The notes below the pieces were generated by a model, which ran no database searches, was not told the origin of the DNA, and saw nothing but the letters and a program-made list of their open reading frames with translations. Shown here piece by piece: positions 13,130-21,423 of a DNA stretch of 44,824 bases. Each line of letters begins with the position of its first letter. Position 1 is the first letter of the stretch. The position numbers were made by a program, and so were the translations under genes. This DNA is from an uncultured Parvularculaceae bacterium (GTDB lineage Bacteria; Pseudomonadota; Alphaproteobacteria; Caulobacterales; Parvularculaceae): positions 1 through 44,824 of the forward strand of contig CAJXLJ010000023.1 in NCBI GenBank assembly GCA_913055785.1, in the 5' to 3' direction.

Positions 13130-13597
13130 CTATCGGGCCAGCGCAATGATCAGCCCCATGCCGGAAACCGCGACCGCGATCGCCGCAGGGATCAGCAAGA
13201 CCTGCAAGGCAGCTTCCTTTCCTGTGATGACGCCCGTCCAGGTTTCAAACGGTTCATCGAGAAAAGCGCCCATGGGCATGACGTCATCGCGCTTTTTGCC
13301 GCCGGCGCGCAGCATCATATAGGGCGTGCCCATATAGGCGGCGAGGTAGACGGCGCTGATCGCCACCATGAACAGGGCTTCCTTGTCTCCCTGGAATGTC
13401 AGCCAGAAAACGCCGAGGATAAATGCATTGATCCCCGCCAGCGCCTTGAAGACGCCGCCATGCATCGCCGTGTTCGCCCGGCGCCCGGCTGACGCGGCCA
13501 CCAGCGCCGGTCTCGGCTTCCTGTCCGGGGAGCGCGCGTCTTCAAGCTCGGCTTCAAGGACCGATGTTTCCAGATTTTGCAGCGCCGCCATGCTCAT
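13130..13597 (-). CDS. Three-helix membrane protein divergent from nsrR-like gene
   Basis: The 155-residue protein has a polar N-terminus of about 45 residues, then three hydrophobic helices (GVFKALAGINAFILGVFWLT; ALFMVAISAVYLAAYMGTPY; LLIPAAIAVAVSGMGLIIAL) with a polar loop (GGKKRDDVMPMG, FLDEPFETW) between the second and third. I recognise no family. AGGAGG five bases before the ATG fixes the start. The gene's upstream region begins with a near-perfect NsrR-type palindrome 18 bases from the ATG, so it is probably repressed by the divergently encoded NsrR-like protein. It may belong to a nitric-oxide response. The direct function is unknown. Confidence 0.82.
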   Translation of the reverse strand: MSMAALQNLETSVLEAELEDARSPDRKPRPALVAASAGRRANTAMHGGVFKALAGINAFILGVFWLTFQGDKEALFMVAISAVYLAAYMGTPYMMLRAGGKKRDDVMPMGAFLDEPFETWTGVITGKEAALQVLLIPAAIAVAVSGMGLIIALAR

Positions 13598-13614
13598 TTT
13601 CGCCTCCTGATTTT

Positions 13615-13637
13615 AAGATGTATATTATATGCATCTT
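13615..13637. promoter_or_regulatory. NsrR-type operator palindrome
   Basis: A 23-base inverted repeat starts AAGATGTATA and ends TATGCATCTT (11-1-11 arrangement), with mismatches only at one position per arm and the centre. It matches the known NsrR consensus form AAGATG(C/T)ATTT-N-AAATGCATCTT closely. It lies between the divergent membrane-protein gene and the NsrR-like gene, close to the start of the former. A second TGCATCTT half-site at 13673-13680 lies near the regulator's own ribosome site. Confidence 0.8.
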
Positions 13638-13694
13638 ATATCTTGCAAAATTCTGAAATTGCAATATATAAAATGCATCTTTTTAGAGGTCCCG

Positions 13695-14132
13695 ATGAGA
13701 TTGAACCTGCAAACCGACTACGCCCTGCGCCTCCTGATGCACCTCGCCGTGAACAAGGACACGCTATGCACCATCGCCGGCGCGGCGGCGCGCTACAGGA
13801 TATCGAAGAACCACCTCATGAAGGTCGCGCACATACTGGGCCGCGAAGGCTTTATCGAAACGGTTCGCGGGCGGGCGGGCGGCTTGCGTCTCGCCGGACC
13901 GGCGCGTGATATCAATGTCGGCGCCGTCGTTCGGCTCATGGAAGCTGACCTCGCGATAGTCGAATGTTTCCAGGGCGGAAAAAACGAGTGCGCCATCACG
14001 CCGGCGTGCCGATTGAAAGGCGCGCTCAACGAGGCCCTGAACGCCTTTCTTGAAGTGCTCGACCATTACACGCTCGAAGACCTGACCGGCCGCAATGCGA
14101 AACTGCGCGCCTTGCTGGCGGAGGCGGCGTGA
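13695..14132 (+). CDS. nsrR: Rrf2-family nitric-oxide-sensing repressor, NsrR-like
   Basis: NsrR is a dimeric iron-sulfur repressor that loses DNA binding when nitric oxide attacks its cluster. The 145-residue product has the Rrf2 winged helix (TDYALRLLMHLAV, recognition helix ISKNHLMKVAHILGREGFIE, wing GRAGGLRLAGPA). It also has the three cluster cysteines Cys91, Cys99 and Cys105 in ECFQGGKNECAITPACRLK. Asp8 sits at the place where NsrR proteins use an Asp as fourth ligand. The ITPACRLK segment is characteristic of NsrR rather than IscR. I chose the ATG at 13695 with AGAGG upstream; the frame extends 22 codons further but covers the operator region. The stop overlaps the start of the haemoglobin-fusion gene (TGATG), so the two are co-translated. 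Confidence 0.88.
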   Translation: MRLNLQTDYALRLLMHLAVNKDTLCTIAGAAARYRISKNHLMKVAHILGREGFIETVRGRAGGLRLAGPARDINVGAVVRLMEADLAIVECFQGGKNECAITPACRLKGALNEALNAFLEVLDHYTLEDLTGRNAKLRALLAEAA

Positions 14133-14851
14133 TGCTTGACAGCATCAGGAGCGCTGATGAGCGCCGCCGTGAAATTCAGGAAAAAGCCGCCGCAATGGGA
14201 ATAGACGAGACGTATATCTCATTGCTTGTCGACACGTTTTACGAACGCGTGCGGGCGCACCCGCTGCTTGCGCCAATTTTCGACGAAGCCATCAAGGACG
14301 ACTGGGCGCCGCATCTTGCGAAGATGAAAGCGTTCTGGGCGTCTGTTGCGCTGAATGCCGGGCGCTATTCCGGCAAGCCTGTGCCGGCGCATCAGAAACT
14401 CGCGCGCGTCAGGCCCTGGCACTTCGAAATCTGGCTGGCGTTGTTCAGGCAGACGCTCGAGGACACCGCCCCCTCGCCCGCCGCCGTCCGGTATTTTCAA
14501 GAGCGCGCCGAACGCATCGCCCAGAGTCTCAAGCTCGCCATGTTCGGCGCGCCGGAACTGGCGGCGGCGGAAGCGTCAAAGACGCCGCCAGAGACTACGA
14601 CCTGCTATGCCGAGACGGAGGTCTTCACGCAGGAAACAGCGCCCGACAAGCTTAGGAGCCTTCATCAAACCAAGCCGGACGTCTGGGGGGAACTGCTCGT
14701 TCTTGAAGGCGCCCTCGATTATGTGATCCCCGGGCCGCCCTTGCGCGAACAGCGCATCAACGCCGGCGGGCATGGCGTGATCGAACCCGCCGTCCCGCAT
14801 TTCGTGCGCCTCACCCGGAACGTCAAATTCAAGATCCGGTTTTACCGCTAG
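14132..14851 (+). CDS. Group III truncated haemoglobin fused to DUF1971 (YeaR/TehB-like) domain
   Basis: The 239-residue protein is a two-domain fusion. Residues about 20-140 form a group III truncated haemoglobin: Tyr37 in DTFYERVRAHPLLAPIF fits TyrB10, WAPHLAKMKAFW is the distal region, and His87 in PAHQKL fits the proximal haem ligand before WHFEIWLALF. Residues about 158-239 match DUF1971, the cupin-like domain of E. coli YeaR and of Haemophilus TehB (APDKLRSLHQTKPDVWGELL, then GHGVIEPAVPHFVRL). A GGAGG seven bases before the ATG favours 14132 over an overlapping GTG. Both domains are linked to nitrosative stress: yeaR is NsrR-controlled in E. coli, and truncated haemoglobins bind NO and oxygen. 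With an NsrR-like gene directly upstream, NO detoxification is the likely role. Confidence 0.9.
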   Translation: MLDSIRSADERRREIQEKAAAMGIDETYISLLVDTFYERVRAHPLLAPIFDEAIKDDWAPHLAKMKAFWASVALNAGRYSGKPVPAHQKLARVRPWHFEIWLALFRQTLEDTAPSPAAVRYFQERAERIAQSLKLAMFGAPELAAAEASKTPPETTTCYAETEVFTQETAPDKLRSLHQTKPDVWGELLVLEGALDYVIPGPPLREQRINAGGHGVIEPAVPHFVRLTRNVKFKIRFYR

Positions 14852-14867: not shown

Positions 14868-14895
14868 GAGCCCGGCCCCCTGGGGAGCCGGGCTC
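14868..14895. terminator. Bidirectional hairpin terminator
   Basis: GAGCCCGGC and GCCGGGCTC form a nine-base perfect stem with a ten-base loop. It lies between the convergent haemoglobin-fusion and VPLPA-CTERM genes, flanked by an A-run (14861-14866) and a T-containing stretch (GGTTTTC) on the other side. This is consistent with termination in both directions. Confidence 0.8.
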
Positions 14896-14900
14896 TCCCC

Positions 14901-15545
14901 CTAGGTTTTCTTGCGGCGGCCCGCCGCGCCGAGCGCCCCTGCGCCGGCGATAAACAGCCAGAGCGCCGCCGGAAGCGGCACTTCGGAAGCCCCGCCCGTA
15001 TCCGCAACCGTAACCGCGCCGAATGTCGGATCGATCAGGCCGCAAGCGAGATCGTAATTGAAATCGCAGGTGAAGATCGCTGAATAGATCAGGTCCGTCG
15101 ACGTAATACCGCCGAACATGACGCCGGAAGGACTTCCGTAGCCGACTTCCCCAAGCAGCGTTCCCGTACCGTTGAGCCCGCTGTAAATCTGAATGCGTCC
15201 GCCGTCATAGGCGTTCGCCCAGGCGCCGACGCCGGCGACGCCGCCGTCGAAGTTGATGCCGAGGCTCGGCGTGGCGGCGCCAAGAAAAAACTGGCCGTTC
15301 AAAATCAATCCGTCGGACCGCACATAGGACGACGGACCGAAGAATTCGGCGCCCGCTGTTTCTATCGAAAGCTGCTCTGTCGTATCGCCGACATTCGCCG
15401 ATGTATCGATCACCGTGAAACCATCGGTGAGCGCATTTTGAAACGCCGTTTGATCCGAATAAGTGATGACGCCCGCCTGCGCCGCGCCGCCGACAAGCGT
15501 AAACCCGATAAGGGCCGCAACGGCCCTTTTTACGCTGATAACCAT
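14901..15545 (-). CDS. VPLPA-CTERM sorting-domain secreted protein
   Basis: The 214-residue protein has an N-terminal signal peptide (RAVAALIGFTLVGGAAQA) and a Gly/Thr-rich beta-type body. Its C-terminal tail is the VPLPA-CTERM type: EVPLPAALWLFIAGAGALGA followed by a basic cluster (GRRKK). Proteins with this tail are processed by exosortase/archaeosortase-type transpeptidases and are usually sent to the cell surface or exopolysaccharide. Two Cys (FTCDFNYDLACG) could form a disulfide. I chose the ATG at 15545 with GGGGG six bases upstream; the open frame continues far upstream over rpoH but is not coding there. No exosortase gene lies in the window. Confidence 0.88.
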   Translation of the reverse strand: MVISVKRAVAALIGFTLVGGAAQAGVITYSDQTAFQNALTDGFTVIDTSANVGDTTEQLSIETAGAEFFGPSSYVRSDGLILNGQFFLGAATPSLGINFDGGVAGVGAWANAYDGGRIQIYSGLNGTGTLLGEVGYGSPSGVMFGGITSTDLIYSAIFTCDFNYDLACGLIDPTFGAVTVADTGGASEVPLPAALWLFIAGAGALGAAGRRKKT

Positions 15546-15977
15546 GATACGCCCCCATACTGTTACAACTGAAAAGACACTGACGTTATCAGCGTCTCGC
15601 CTTCGCGTTATCAGTATTGGTCCGGCTTGATATTGTAGAAAATCGACAGCACATCCCGGAACGCCGATCTTAACTATAAAAACCGGCCCCGCCGGGCTTA
15701 CGCCGCCCCTTTCGGCGGCGGCATGCGCTCTTCCGGCAACGATCCCTCCCTCACGCCTTTTTGCACGCGTGAGAGCCCCAATTGACTGGAAAACCGCCCT
15801 AATTCCGGCGAAAAAGGGCGCTATCAAGAGATCAAGGCCGTCCGCCCTTGGGATTTCCCCATCAGCCCCCATATAGGAGCCAAACGCCGCCAAGAGCGTC
15901 TTTTCCGGGGACTTCCGCCATTTGGACCTAAACGGCCTCGACGAGTATGATGCTGCGCGAAGGAGAGAGATGCGCCG
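15546..15977. other. Long divergent upstream region of rpoH and the VPLPA gene
   Basis: This 432-base stretch has no credible gene. It holds two hairpins, CGCCG-N8-CGGCG at 15701-15718 and CTCACGC-N10-GCGTGAG at 15750-15773. A sigma-32-type promoter follows at 15847-15874, then a leader of roughly 90-100 bases before rpoH. The length is in keeping with complex control of rpoH. Confidence 0.6.
15847..15874 (+). promoter_or_regulatory. Sigma-32-type promoter of rpoH
   Basis: CTTGGGA (15847-15853), a 13-base spacer and CCCCATAT (15867-15874) match the heat-shock form CTTGAAA-N11-15-CCCCATnT. Autoregulation of rpoH from a sigma-32 promoter is established in Caulobacter, and the same is inferred here. 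Confidence 0.7.
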
Positions 15978-16895
15978 ATGAGTAATGCTTTGACCACCAC
16001 CGCCGCCCTGACGCCGGAAGGCTCGCTGTCGCGCTACCTCGCCGAGATCCGCAAGTTTCCGATGCTGGAGAAGGACGAGGAATACATGCTCGCGAAGCGT
16101 TTCGTCGAGCATGAGGATCCGGACGCCGCGCACAAGCTGATCACCAGCCACCTGCGGCTCGTGGCGAAAATCGCCATGGGCTATCGCGGGTACGGCCTGC
16201 CGATCGGCGAAGTCATTTCCGAAGGCAATGTCGGCCTGATGCAGGCGGTCAAGCGCTTCGATCCGGAAAAGGGCTTCCGCCTCGCCACCTACGCCATGTG
16301 GTGGATCCGCGCTTCCATTCAGGAATACATTTTGCGCTCATGGTCGCTCGTCAAAATCGGCACCACCGCCGCGCAGAAAAAACTCTTCTTCAACCTGAGG
16401 AAGATCAAGGGCCAGATCGACGCCGTCGACGAAGGCGATTTGAACCCCGAACAGGTCGAGCACATCGCCACCAAGCTCGGCGTCACTCATGACGACGTCA
16501 TCAGCATGAACCGGCGGATGTCCGGCGGCGAGGCGTCCTTGAACGCCCCGATGTCGAAGGACGCCGACGGCGGCGGCGAATGGCAGGACTGGCTCGTTGA
16601 CGACGACGCCGTCAATCCGGAAATGAAGCTCGCCAATGACGACGAATACGAGATGCGCATGGGGTTGCTTGAGCAGGCGCTGGCGACCCTGAACGAACGC
16701 GAGCAGCACATCCTCACCGAGCGGCGGCTGAAAGATAATCCCTCGACGCTCGAAGAGCTCAGCCAGGTTTACGGCGTCTCCCGCGAACGGGTGCGCCAGA
16801 TCGAGGTGCGCGCCTTTGAAAAGCTGCAAAAAGCCATGAAGCGCATGGACAAGGAAGCGCGGGCGCCGAAAACCGTCGAAGAGGCGGACGCCTGA
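15978..16895 (+). CDS. rpoH: RNA polymerase heat-shock sigma factor (sigma-32)
   Basis: This sigma factor directs RNA polymerase to heat-shock promoters. The 305-residue product has region 1.2/2.1 (LSRYLAEIRKFPMLEKDEEY), region 2.2-2.4 (LPIGEVISEGNVGLMQAVKR, then ATYAMWWIRASIQEYILRSW), the RpoH box QKKLFFNLRK that sets it apart from RpoD, and a region 4.2 helix-turn-helix (TLEELSQVYGVSRERVRQIE). AGGAGAGAG lies ten bases before the ATG. A three-codon ATG-CGC-CGA-TGA frame overlaps the start codon; it is probably a chance feature. A sigma-32-like promoter lies about 100 bases upstream. Confidence 0.97.
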   Translation: MSNALTTTAALTPEGSLSRYLAEIRKFPMLEKDEEYMLAKRFVEHEDPDAAHKLITSHLRLVAKIAMGYRGYGLPIGEVISEGNVGLMQAVKRFDPEKGFRLATYAMWWIRASIQEYILRSWSLVKIGTTAAQKKLFFNLRKIKGQIDAVDEGDLNPEQVEHIATKLGVTHDDVISMNRRMSGGEASLNAPMSKDADGGGEWQDWLVDDDAVNPEMKLANDDEYEMRMGLLEQALATLNEREQHILTERRLKDNPSTLEELSQVYGVSRERVRQIEVRAFEKLQKAMKRMDKEARAPKTVEEADA

Positions 16896-17391: not shown

Positions 17392-17592
17392 CGATGCAAC
17401 TTTCTTGTAAAAACACCTTCGCCCTCTTGGGGGCCGGGCTGCTTAGGGCAATCGTCCTAGATTGTCTGTCCTGCAAATGCTGGACAAAACTGCGCCGAAA
17501 GCGCTTTTATCGGGGTGTTTTGTATTTCCTCACGGCGATTTGAACTGACGGCGGCCCGACCATGGCGCGCCGCCTCCATGCGTGACGGTGCA

Positions 17593-18300
17593 ATGACGCT
17601 TGAAGACTACCTGCGGCGCCTTCAAGGCGAGAACGATCCGGAAAAGCTCGGCGAGATCCTCCATGAAGCGCTCTCCGGCATGGGCGCAACCGTCTACAGC
17701 GGCCGGGAACTGCCCTATGGCGCGACCATCAGGGGCTCAAACTGGGATCCCATCGTCTCCACATTTTCCGAAAGCGCAAAAGCCGCCTATCAGAAATACC
17801 GCTCCGGCGGCGACCCGTTTTTCGAGGCCGCAATGGCGAATGGCGCGCCCGTTCATTACAATCGCATCAAGAATGACTTTTCCTTCACCGATGAACAAAG
17901 AGCGTTGTTTCAGGCGATGGAGGACTCAGGCCTTAAGGACGGTGTGGCGACGCCGGTCATCGCCAAGCCCGGCGTCGCCGCCTATTTCGTCGCCGCCTTT
18001 CCGGAGCCGCGTCCCGATCTCAAACCCGAAGACCTGCGCCGCCTTCATCTGATCTTCAGCGAGTATTATTACCGCTACCGGGAACTGACGCGCCTGCAGA
18101 AAGCCACGCTTTCCAAACGCGAACGCCAGATCCTGGTCGGCATCATTTCCGGCAAATCCAACATTGAAATCGGCGAGCAACTCGGCCTGTCGAAGGGCAC
18201 CATCGACACATATGTCCGGCGCAGCTTTGACAAACTCGGCGTTAAAAGCCGGATCGAAGCCGCGCTAAAATATTTCAGCCTCGGCCTTCATTTGAGCTGA
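17593..18300 (+). CDS. LuxR-family transcriptional regulator with autoinducer-binding-like domain
   Basis: The 235-residue protein ends in a LuxR-type DNA-binding domain (LSKRERQILVGIISGKSNIE, then LGLSKGTIDTYVRRSFDKLG). The N-terminal 160 residues have the size and layout of the acyl-homoserine-lactone-binding domain of LuxR proteins, but I cannot verify the ligand residues. There is no luxI-type synthase in the window, so this is a solo regulator. The start is uncertain: in-frame candidates are a GTG at 17515 and ATGs at 17578 and 17593. I took the last, which begins MTLEDYLRRL, because the upstream residues look random. No strong ribosome site supports any of them. Confidence 0.82.
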   Translation: MTLEDYLRRLQGENDPEKLGEILHEALSGMGATVYSGRELPYGATIRGSNWDPIVSTFSESAKAAYQKYRSGGDPFFEAAMANGAPVHYNRIKNDFSFTDEQRALFQAMEDSGLKDGVATPVIAKPGVAAYFVAAFPEPRPDLKPEDLRRLHLIFSEYYYRYRELTRLQKATLSKRERQILVGIISGKSNIEIGEQLGLSKGTIDTYVRRSFDKLGVKSRIEAALKYFSLGLHLS

Positions 18301-18312
18301 CCGAACGCCGGC

Positions 18313-21300
18313 CTAATGACCCGGGGCGCTCGCCAGTTCCGCCGCGACCTTATCGCTTTCTGAAATGCGCGGCTGGGACAGCCCGGCGAAAAGCAGGAAC
18401 GCTACAGGCGTCAGGAACAACGTGAAGACCGTTGCAAAGCCGAGCCCGCCGAAAATCACCCAACCGAGCGCCGCGCGGCTTTCCGCGCCCGCGCCGGCGC
18501 CAAGAATGAGCGGCAGACTGGCCAGCAGCGTCGAGATCGCCGTCATCAGGACCGGGCGCAGACGCACCATGGCTGCGGTCTCGACAGCCTCGCGCACGCT
18601 CTTGCCTTCATCGCGCTGGCGATTGGCGAACTCGACGATCAGAATGCCGTTCTTGGCCATGACGCCGATCAGCAGCACCAGTCCGATCTGGCTGTAATAG
18701 TTGATCGAACCGCCGGTAATCAGGATTGCGTAGATCGCCGCGGCGAGACCGAACGGCACCGTCACCATGATGATAAGGGAACTGACGAAACTCTCGAACT
18801 GCGCGGCGAGCACGAGAAAGACGATGAGTCCGGCGAAGGCGAATACGATGAGCGTCGCATTGCTCGACTCTTGCAGAACTTTCGCCTCCCCCAGAAGCGT
18901 TACAGACAGATTGCCTTCCAGCATGTCGGCGGCGATTGCGCGCATTTCCCTCACCGCATCGCCAAGGGGAACATTGTCGGCGAGCTCTGCAGTGACCGGC
19001 ACCGCGCGGCGGCGTTGCTCACGCGCCAGTTCGGCGGCGACAGCGACTTCGCGCACCGTCGCCAGCGAGGACAGCGGCACAAAATCGCCATTGGCGGCCC
19101 GCAGGAAAATATTGGCGAGATCGGTGGGATCGTTTACCGGCTCGCCCGCGCCCGACATCATGACGTTGATGATATCGTCGCCGACAAATATTTCCGCCGC
19201 CTTATATTCGTCGGCGAGCACCTGGACGGTCCGGCTGATGGCGGTCACCGGCACGCCAAGCGCCGTCGCCGCCTCACGGTCGATCTCGATCGTCACCTGC
19301 GGCTGGGATGTCTGGAAGTCGGTGCGCACGTCGGCGAACGAAGGCGAGGCCATCATGCGCGCAGCCATGGCGTCCGCCGCCGCCGCCGCCGCGCCGTAGT
19401 CATCCCCGACGACAGCAAAGCGAAGCCCCTGCCCCGCGCCGCGAATGCCGAGCGAGTTGCCTCTGCGGACATTGATGCTCACGCCGGCGATGTCGCTAAG
19501 GCGATCGCGCACTTTCTGTTCGATCTCATGTTGCGAGAAATTACGGTCCGACCAGTCCGGCAGGATCAGGATCACAAAAGACCGCAACCCGCCGCCGACG
19601 CCGTTGATCGACGTGATCGCCGTCACCTCGCCGCTTTCGGCGAAAGGCTGAAGGCGCTGTTCGATCTCCAGCACCTTGCGGTCAAGATATTGAAAGCTCG
19701 ACCCCTCCTGTCCCGAAAGCGAGATAAATACGCGGCCGCGATCTTCCTCGGGAGTCAGTTCTTTCGGCGCCGCCTGAAAGGCGCCGATCGCGCCAGCGGC
19801 GAAGACCAGCGCGGCGGCGGAAATCAGGACTGGCCGGTTCAATGTAAAACGCAGCGCCGGGCCATATATCCGCGTAAGGGGGCCATCCGGCTGTGTCTTT
19901 TCGCTCCCGTGATCCATTTCAGCGCGATGCTCGCGGCCGAGTTTGACCGTCAGCACGGGACACAAGGTGAGCGCCACAAAGGAAGACACCGCCACGGCGA
20001 AAGCCATCACGAAGCCGAACTCGGAAAACAGCCGGCCCGCCTGTCCCGGCAGGAAAGAAATCGGGATGAAAACGGAAGCCAGCGTGACGGTGGTGGCCAG
20101 AACAGCGAAAACGATCTCGCGCGTGCCGAGGACCGCCGCGGCGCGCTTGCCGGCGCCCTTGCCGCGCCAGCGCTGAATGTTCTCGGTGACGACGACCGCA
20201 TCGTCGACGACCAGCCCCGACGCCATCACCAGCGCCAGAAGCGTGATCAGGTTGATCGAGAAACCCGCAAGATAAATGGCGGCGATTGTACCGAGCAGCG
20301 ATATCGGGATGGTCACCGCCGGAATCATCGTCGCCCGCAGCGACCTCAGGAACATGAAGATCACGAACACGACGATCGCCGTCGCGAACAGGAGACTCTT
20401 GAACACCTCGCGCACCGCTTCGGCGATGAAAATAGAATCGTCGACCGGCACGGTGATCCGCACATTGCTCGGCAGCGATTGTTCGAGTTCGGCGACCGCC
20501 GCGCGGACGCCGGCTGACACCGCCATGGTGTTGGACTGCGCCTGACGGATTATGCCGATGCCGATGCCGGGATCGCCGTCAATGCGCGCCGTTCTTGTTT
20601 CATCTTCATACCCCCACTCAACGACAGCGACGTCGGAAAGGCGGGTCTGGGCGTCAAGGCGCAGGGCCGCGATGTGTTCCGGGGTCGTCGCGGGCGCCTC
20701 GGCGCGGATCAATATCTGCTGCGTATTACTCCTCAGCCGTCCGCTCGGCGTCGATTGCGCCGCCGTCGCGGCGAGCCGCGCAACATCCTCAACCGTATAA
20801 CCGCGCGCCGCGAGAGAGACCGGCAGCACGCGGATGCGAATAAGTTTGTTTCTGACGCCGTAATCGTCCGCCTGCGCCACGCCTTCGACAGCCTGCAATC
20901 GCGGCAGGATCACATCGTCGACAATCCGCGCGATGTCCCCGTCATCCATACCCGAGGCCGACACGCTAAGGCGCATCATCGGCGAACCGTTCGAGTCCGC
21001 CTTGCGCACCCGGGGCAGCTCGATCTCTTCGGGAAGCTCGTCCGATTGCGACGAGATGGCGTTTTGAACATCGGTCGCGGCGATATTGATGTCGACGCTG
21101 CTGGTGAACTCCACCGTTACGTCGCTGTCGCCGAAACTGGACTCAGAAGAGATATTCTTAACGCCGTCGACCTGCGCGACAGCGCTTTCGACTATAGCCG
21201 TCACTTCAGCATCCACGGTTTCGGGCGTCGCGCCGGGATAGCTCGTGTCAATGGATACGACCGGCTGGTCGACATCGGGAAGCTCGCGCACTTCGACGCC

Positions 21301-21423
21301 GAAAAAGGCGGCGAGGCCGGCAATGACGATCAGCAGGCTCAAGACAGCCGCCAGAATAGGCCGCCGGATGAATGCGCCGACAAAACCGCCGCTATAATCC
21401 GATTTCTGATGAGCGGCGGCCAT
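18313..21423 (-). CDS. RND-family efflux permease (HAE-1/AcrB type)
   Basis: This inner-membrane proton-driven pump expels hydrophobic compounds through a periplasmic adaptor and an outer-membrane channel. The 1036 residues and twelve expected helices fit the AcrB plan. The first helix is ILAAVLSLLIVIAGLAAFFG. The proton-relay Asp pair is in ASGLVVDDAVVVTENIQRW. The duplicated half has AKNGILIVEFANRQRDEG. Large periplasmic loops lie at about 50-330 and 560-860. The gene follows the adaptor gene by nine bases with GAGGCGAGGCG before its ATG, so the two form an operon. No TolC-like gene is adjacent, so the outer-membrane partner must be elsewhere. The substrate is unknown. Confidence 0.95.
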   Translation of the reverse strand: MAAAHQKSDYSGGFVGAFIRRPILAAVLSLLIVIAGLAAFFGVEVRELPDVDQPVVSIDTSYPGATPETVDAEVTAIVESAVAQVDGVKNISSESSFGDSDVTVEFTSSVDINIAATDVQNAISSQSDELPEEIELPRVRKADSNGSPMMRLSVSASGMDDGDIARIVDDVILPRLQAVEGVAQADDYGVRNKLIRIRVLPVSLAARGYTVEDVARLAATAAQSTPSGRLRSNTQQILIRAEAPATTPEHIAALRLDAQTRLSDVAVVEWGYEDETRTARIDGDPGIGIGIIRQAQSNTMAVSAGVRAAVAELEQSLPSNVRITVPVDDSIFIAEAVREVFKSLLFATAIVVFVIFMFLRSLRATMIPAVTIPISLLGTIAAIYLAGFSINLITLLALVMASGLVVDDAVVVTENIQRWRGKGAGKRAAAVLGTREIVFAVLATTVTLASVFIPISFLPGQAGRLFSEFGFVMAFAVAVSSFVALTLCPVLTVKLGREHRAEMDHGSEKTQPDGPLTRIYGPALRFTLNRPVLISAAALVFAAGAIGAFQAAPKELTPEEDRGRVFISLSGQEGSSFQYLDRKVLEIEQRLQPFAESGEVTAITSINGVGGGLRSFVILILPDWSDRNFSQHEIEQKVRDRLSDIAGVSINVRRGNSLGIRGAGQGLRFAVVGDDYGAAAAAADAMAARMMASPSFADVRTDFQTSQPQVTIEIDREAATALGVPVTAISRTVQVLADEYKAAEIFVGDDIINVMMSGAGEPVNDPTDLANIFLRAANGDFVPLSSLATVREVAVAAELAREQRRRAVPVTAELADNVPLGDAVREMRAIAADMLEGNLSVTLLGEAKVLQESSNATLIVFAFAGLIVFLVLAAQFESFVSSLIIMVTVPFGLAAAIYAILITGGSINYYSQIGLVLLIGVMAKNGILIVEFANRQRDEGKSVREAVETAAMVRLRPVLMTAISTLLASLPLILGAGAGAESRAALGWVIFGGLGFATVFTLFLTPVAFLLFAGLSQPRISESDKVAAELASAPGH

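Follow-up and report, generated by a model that had tools for sequence, protein, structure and literature searches.

Within the window, by which we mean the whole stretch of 44,824 nucleotides analysed from an uncultured Parvularculaceae bacterium, lies a cassette of closely packed genes (Table 1). An NsrR-type repressor gene of the Rrf2 family is followed by a gene for one chain that joins an N-terminal group III truncated haemoglobin to a C-terminal DUF1971 cupin of the YeaR/TehB-N type, and a small membrane protein gene is read away from both, with an NsrR-type operator between the two divergent genes. The original prediction dealt with the globin, the DUF1971 domain and the regulator; the 155-aa minus-strand frame lay within the span that it covered, was left undescribed there, and belongs to the cassette. 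The DNA beyond the cassette holds a minus-strand frame (14904-15560) for a protein with a PEP-CTERM sorting signal, barely above the Pfam cut-off, a downstream sigma-70 family factor gene (15978-16895; regions 1.2, 2 and 4) with no evident link to the cassette, and, from the list of open reading frames, a LuxR-type regulator frame (17515-18300) that adjoins an RND-permease-like frame (18313-21423).

Table 1. Features of the cassette in the window and of related loci elsewhere (locus handle given where coordinates are not those of the window).
Feature	Position	Strand	Remarks
Small membrane protein	13130..13597	-	155 aa; read away from nsrR; also present in related cassettes
NsrR-type operator	13617..13635		0 mismatches to gATGyAT-N5-ATrCATc
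Possible second operator, weak	13661..13679		3 mismatches; chance matches this weak are expected
nsrR-type Rrf2 repressor gene	13695..14132	+	145 aa; Asp8, Cys91/99/105
Fusion gene	14132..14851	+	ATG start; alternative start GTG at 14129
Group III truncated haemoglobin domain	14174..14548	+	PDB match, alignment, Foldseek
Linker, former gene junction	14549..14599	+	no start codon in frame between 14540 and 14723
DUF1971 cupin domain	14600..14848	+	invariant His179, His224 (numbered from GTG)
Terminator-like hairpins	14868..14900		3' of the fusion gene; weak: 3 in scanned stretch vs 1.8 in shuffles
Globin-membrane protein fusions	L045 2684-3547; L222 3959-5032; L223 4222-5100		287-357 aa frames, same-genus genomes
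Group III truncated globins annotated TatC protein translocase	L213 3989-4372; L214 3992-4429		

The claim that globin and DUF1971 share one chain is borne out by a single open frame of 240 aa (from the GTG) or 239 aa (from the ATG), within which both domains were matched. As had also been claimed, the gene overlaps that of the repressor: its ATG and the regulator's stop form TGATG, which suggests coupled translation. No ATG, GTG or TTG stands in the DUF1971 frame across the former junction, so a separate DUF1971 product is unlikely. The same absence bears on whether a sequencing or assembly error has joined two real genes, a reading we find scarcely credible: the source is a draft assembly of 85 contigs and no second genome of the species was among the relatives searched, but a separate DUF1971 gene would have no start codon and the window differs from its sister genomes at several places across the junction.

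Profile searches of the two halves gave a divided answer. DUF1971 (PF09313) was matched over residues 163-235 with 58.1 bits (E 9.1e-16; cut-off 23.1), whereas the predicted globin match failed in Pfam, where Bac_globin reached 19.3 bits (E 0.0013) against a cut-off of 21, and was recovered in the PDB through the group III truncated haemoglobin of Campylobacter jejuni, 2ig3 (E 3.5e-15). The Bac_globin model is weak for this group, in that a close relative with a single domain likewise falls short (20.3 bits) and three of six other fusions pass it by a margin of about 1 bit. The N-terminal half is a group III truncated haemoglobin, an assignment that rests on 2ig3 because Bac_globin stayed below its cut-off. 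The DUF1971 half also matches 3dl3, a TehB, and by profile search the chain lacks the reductase domain by which an Hmp is recognized. Structure prediction of the full chain returned known folds for both halves: the AlphaFold2 model, built on a 63-row alignment (the window plus 62 of 100 listed rows), has a mean pLDDT of 93.5 and a pTM of 0.70 and is weakest at the block 141-150 between the domains, and Foldseek paired its first domain with 2ig3 (2ig3_B, rmsd 1.5, TM by target 0.87) and its second with 3dl3 and 3bb6. Tyr37 and the proximal His87 had been named correctly, counted from the ATG; counted from the GTG, as in what follows, Tyr38, His62, His88 and Trp102 align with 2ig3, and we take His88 to be the proximal ligand and the other three to be distal residues of the haem pocket. 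In an alignment of 53 globin-DUF1971 pairs, every row has His62, His88 and Trp102, as well as His179 and His224 of DUF1971, and 52 rows have Tyr38.

The regulator is a member of the Rrf2 family by profile (122.9 bits), and its NCBIfam scores, 138 bits for RirA and 126 bits for NsrR, both lie below cut-off; it is because the NsrR equivalog threshold is missed (125.9 vs 182 bits) that we write NsrR-type. With neither model reaching its cut-off the profile scores are not decisive, and the decision falls to residue 8, which in NsrR is an Asp that serves as the fourth cluster ligand and in RirA is an Asn, according to the accessible text of PMC10510648. The protein carries Asp8, on which RirA identity was ruled out, and its Cys91, Cys99 and Cys105 align with those of its top PDB match, NsrR 5n07; all four residues are those originally named. 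That the regulator is nonetheless a RirA-type iron sensor, with a cassette answering iron or Fe-S damage and not NO, is very improbable, since its slightly higher RirA score is opposed by Asp8, by the best PDB match and by a perfect NsrR operator. That operator follows the consensus of Rodionov et al. 2005, as given in the text of PMC1274295 available to us, and is the sole zero-mismatch copy both in the window and in the 3.26 Mb assembly, where the one other place with a single mismatch lies inside a 292-codon open frame. We scored 68 regions upstream of Rrf2 genes that have such a globin nearby: the best-matching site carries 0-2 mismatches in 44 regions and 3-5 in the remaining 24 (5, 12, 27, 8, 8 and 8 regions with 0, 1, 2, 3, 4 and 5 mismatches). 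These regions are related to each other and are not independent tests. In loci of the same genus and the same family the operator mostly stands 58-63 bp before nsrR.

Such arrangements recur well beyond the window. Among 80 globin loci in the matches listed, 29 have a DUF1971 gene within 1.5 kb and 32 an Rrf2 gene (both in 20, DUF1971 only in 9, Rrf2 only in 12, neither in 39), so that 9 of the 29 DUF1971-linked globins stand without an Rrf2 gene at that distance; the two neighbours are nevertheless associated (Fisher p 1.1e-4, uncorrected for kinship), which answers the survey of co-occurrence with NsrR that had been suggested, and 18 of the 20 Rrf2 genes at listed loci with both neighbours encode Asp8 and the three cysteines. 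In Rhizorhabdus, Agrobacterium and Sphingomonas, plasmids that type as conjugative (L213, L214, L215, L216) carry the globin-DUF1971 pair or fusion next to Hmp, NO reductase or alternative oxidase, which means that the cassette can probably travel; the RW1 plasmid shows no Rrf2 gene within the stretch shown. Hmp also lies in the operon of relatives. A search of the window's own genome with one Hmp matched the reductase part only; a search for NnrS gave no match, nor did it in control genomes; and a COX1 search gave two matches, the weaker of which looks by eye like a cbb3-type subunit, so NorB is likely, though only likely, to be absent.

These neighbours also bear on the thought that the globin is a sensor of NO or O2 which switches DUF1971, in the manner of globin-coupled sensors, and does not destroy NO. 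A partner domain C-terminal to the globin, in one chain, is what such a sensor would look like, and some of these operons already hold Hmp, a dedicated NO dioxygenase. We nevertheless judge a sensor unlikely: the two parts are encoded by separate genes in most cassettes, DUF1971 is not a known signalling domain, and no Hmp was found in the window's genome by the one-query search, so that something else must remove NO there.

The small membrane protein, for which neither Pfam nor NCBIfam holds a family above cut-off, appears to be a third partner of the globin and DUF1971. It adjoins cassette genes in the window's genus and in the G114 group; a search of 60 relatives gave it in 11, every one in the window's genus. 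In sphingomonads, where nsrR is divergent from the operon, a more distant membrane protein sits between globin and DUF1971. In three genomes (G027, G022 and G011) the membrane protein is itself fused to a related group III-type globin, with an Rrf2 gene within about 0.6 kb. Membrane proteins that follow Hmp in L214 and L216 apparently belong to another family and were left uncounted. Such an exchange of partners classically hints at physical association without proving it, and it is possible, if rather doubtful, that globin, DUF1971 and membrane protein are parts of a single NO-handling complex attached to the membrane, in which evolution would have tied the globin covalently to either partner. 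Were this so, DUF1971/YeaR would be the globin's working partner, and the first mechanistic lead on the orphan YeaR of Escherichia coli would be at hand.

How the fusion came about can be traced among close relatives. A match was found in 67 of 149 relatives searched and in 12 of 28 genomes of the same genus, and of these 12 the window's alone has the unbroken fusion. In four sister genomes (G004, G025, G008 and G022) a separate DUF1971 gene lies directly 3' of the globin, and by this the window's fusion looks derived; in G017 and G021 the DUF1971 gene lies beyond the membrane protein. In G008 a TGATG stop/start overlap follows the hexamer TCAAAG, which is also present in the window, where the window has TCAAAGACG; we infer that a deletion removed the stop and shifted the globin tail into the DUF1971 frame. 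Such a loss of the stop between co-transcribed genes could be a neutral accident, leaving a working globin with a DUF1971 half that is decaying or merely tolerated, and the restriction of the fusion to the window's species among the globin-bearing genomes of its genus is what one would expect of it. So is the faster change of the DUF1971 half (dN 0.39-0.45 in the window vs 0.10-0.22 in the sisters), as under loosened constraint. Despite this divergence, the half keeps every residue invariant in the 53-row set, dN/dS is below 0.4 where computable (dS being near saturation), no other DUF1971 match was found in the genome, and fusions of the same order recur elsewhere, so we regard an accident of this sort as improbable.

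The recurrence spans several lineages. In-frame fusions occur in Caulobacter-type genomes, in Rhizobiaceae, in a sphingomonad and in an Alcaligenaceae record, and in a scan of named genomes, which kept loci of at least 80 of 541 relatives, 6 of 80 were fused among the matches listed (Parasphingorhabdus flavimaris, an Alcaligenaceae strain, Caulobacter, two Ensifer and one Rhizobium record). In the G114 family the fusion is unbroken in 9 of 249 genomes among the matches listed, all of one genus; the 245-aa protein of one of the nine (G1014) is identical to that of Caulobacter sp. UNC358 (L165), and three of the nine, seen in full, have NsrR divergent from fusion, Hmp and membrane protein, in that order. 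Class-wide, DUF1971 was found in 31 of 385 genomes, and of the 30 loci fetched from 36 places, 4 (window included) are fused to such a globin and 12 have one close by, 16 in all; among 398 genomes sampled across the phylum, the only match spanning both domains was the window's own. A tree of the 53 pairs, 18 of them fused, calls for at least 5 changes of fusion state. Bootstrap trees require 5-6, well-supported branches alone imply at least 3, and separate DUF1971 (58 rows) and globin (53 rows) trees give 6 each. Identical pairs were counted once (L165 is identical to L106), L110 and L139 were excluded as doubtful pairs, and L079, L107, L147, L202 and L069 (partial, doubtful or very long) were removed before the concatenated tree was built. 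A single change explaining all fusions was found in 0 of 200 bootstrap trees, in an analysis that does not separate gains from losses. The worry that fusion and neighbourhood might be absent from all relatives, as a frame artefact would be, thus finds no support, and the window's fusion seems to be neither unique nor ancestral. That the same two genes have been joined more than once in related bacteria is a hint that both proteins work together. Three plasmid-borne single-frame matches, among those listed, are named only "DUF1971 domain-containing protein", which may explain why the globin half went unnoticed; a full-text literature search, one part of which was confounded because "yeaR" also matches "year", found no paper on a globin-DUF1971 fusion. 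The parts and the control of the cassette are of kinds already known; it is for their combination that this search found no paper.

Expression data from other organisms point to NO. By RNA-seq of Sphingopyxis granuli, in the data as excerpted from PMC6472365, DETA-NO raised SGRAN_3394-3396, which diverge from nsrR, 142-229-fold, and this is the response that the original prediction would lead one to seek in an operon of matching layout. SGRAN_3394 is labelled TatC, and the authors left the function of the operon open in the portion of PMC7713065 at our disposal; the same label is carried by group III globin matches in two Rhizorhabdus records. By layout and label, and not by sequence match, the Sphingopyxis operon would be this cassette. 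The control of E. coli yeaR by NsrR, also part of the prediction, is established in the excerpted text of PMC5320621, where the gene, given as one for a hypothetical protein, counts among the known targets of NsrR and among the genes most induced on nitrate, and is up 160-fold in anaerobic nitrate cultures of a CFT073 mutant; nitrate was the NO source in those cultures, and the rise may partly reflect nitrate itself. In the accounts available in part, an E. coli NsrR ChIP-seq study missed yeaR, E. coli could do without yeaR-yoaG for one NO-scavenging activity, and an nsrR mutant of Salmonella showed no rise in tehB (PMC2884951).

We consider it likely that the locus is an NsrR-repressed NO-detoxification cassette in which globin and DUF1971 act together. 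The original proposal of a compact module against nitrosative stress, equipped with a local sensor of NO, agrees with the NsrR-type residues, the single exact operator, the recurring layout, the Hmp, NO reductase or alternative oxidase neighbours and the Sphingopyxis induction. In such a cassette NO would damage the Fe-S cluster of the regulator and release the operator, whereupon two transcripts would start, leftward for the membrane protein and rightward for nsrR and the fusion; derepression by NO is what we would predict for this organism. With its haem the globin half would bind O2 and NO, and its most likely reaction would be the conversion of NO to nitrate. The DUF1971 cupin, with its two invariant histidines, might take part in this pathway, with the haem or the globin's product as its probable target, a role at which we can only guess; the globin might, as had been suggested, supply NO or oxidised nitrogen chemistry to it. 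The fusion itself would have arisen in an older cassette, by loss of the stop and start that separated two adjacent genes. On this reading the recurrent globin fusion and the three-gene cassette give YeaR a candidate partner, and the cassette may explain the most NO-induced operon of Sphingopyxis, so far labelled as protein transport.

Among known systems, the C. jejuni haemoglobin 2ig3, to which the N-terminal half is closest in sequence and among the closest in structure, is presumably Ctb, and the C-terminal half has the fold of the TehB-type 3dl3 and of E. coli P64488 (3bb6), which we take to be YeaR, stand-alone proteins that lack a globin. Ctb is a single domain controlled by NssR, as the consulted part of PMC3820574 has it, whereas the window's globin is fused and its gene adjoins that of an NsrR-type regulator. 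The NsrR regulon of Rodionov et al. shares the operator consensus and counts tehB homologues among its predicted targets, and in Legionella an operon of glbN and a ferredoxin reductase is the sole NsrR target, much like the single exact site here; in contrast to the window, the targets given in the text at hand include neither a globin with DUF1971 nor a fusion, and NsrR orthologues in Alphaproteobacteria are given for one Rhodobacter strain only (PMC1274295, available in part). Similar in layout is S. granuli SGRAN_3393-3396, an nsrR divergent from a three-gene operon whose genes are listed separately and are not fused, so far as the excerpts of PMC6472365 and PMC7713065 extend. Finally, Hmp and the nitrate reductase-truncated globin chimera of raphidophytes, as described in the section of PMC3820574 consulted, are likewise NO-related and place a globin and a partner domain in one chain, but there the partners are reductase domains, whereas in the window the partner is DUF1971.
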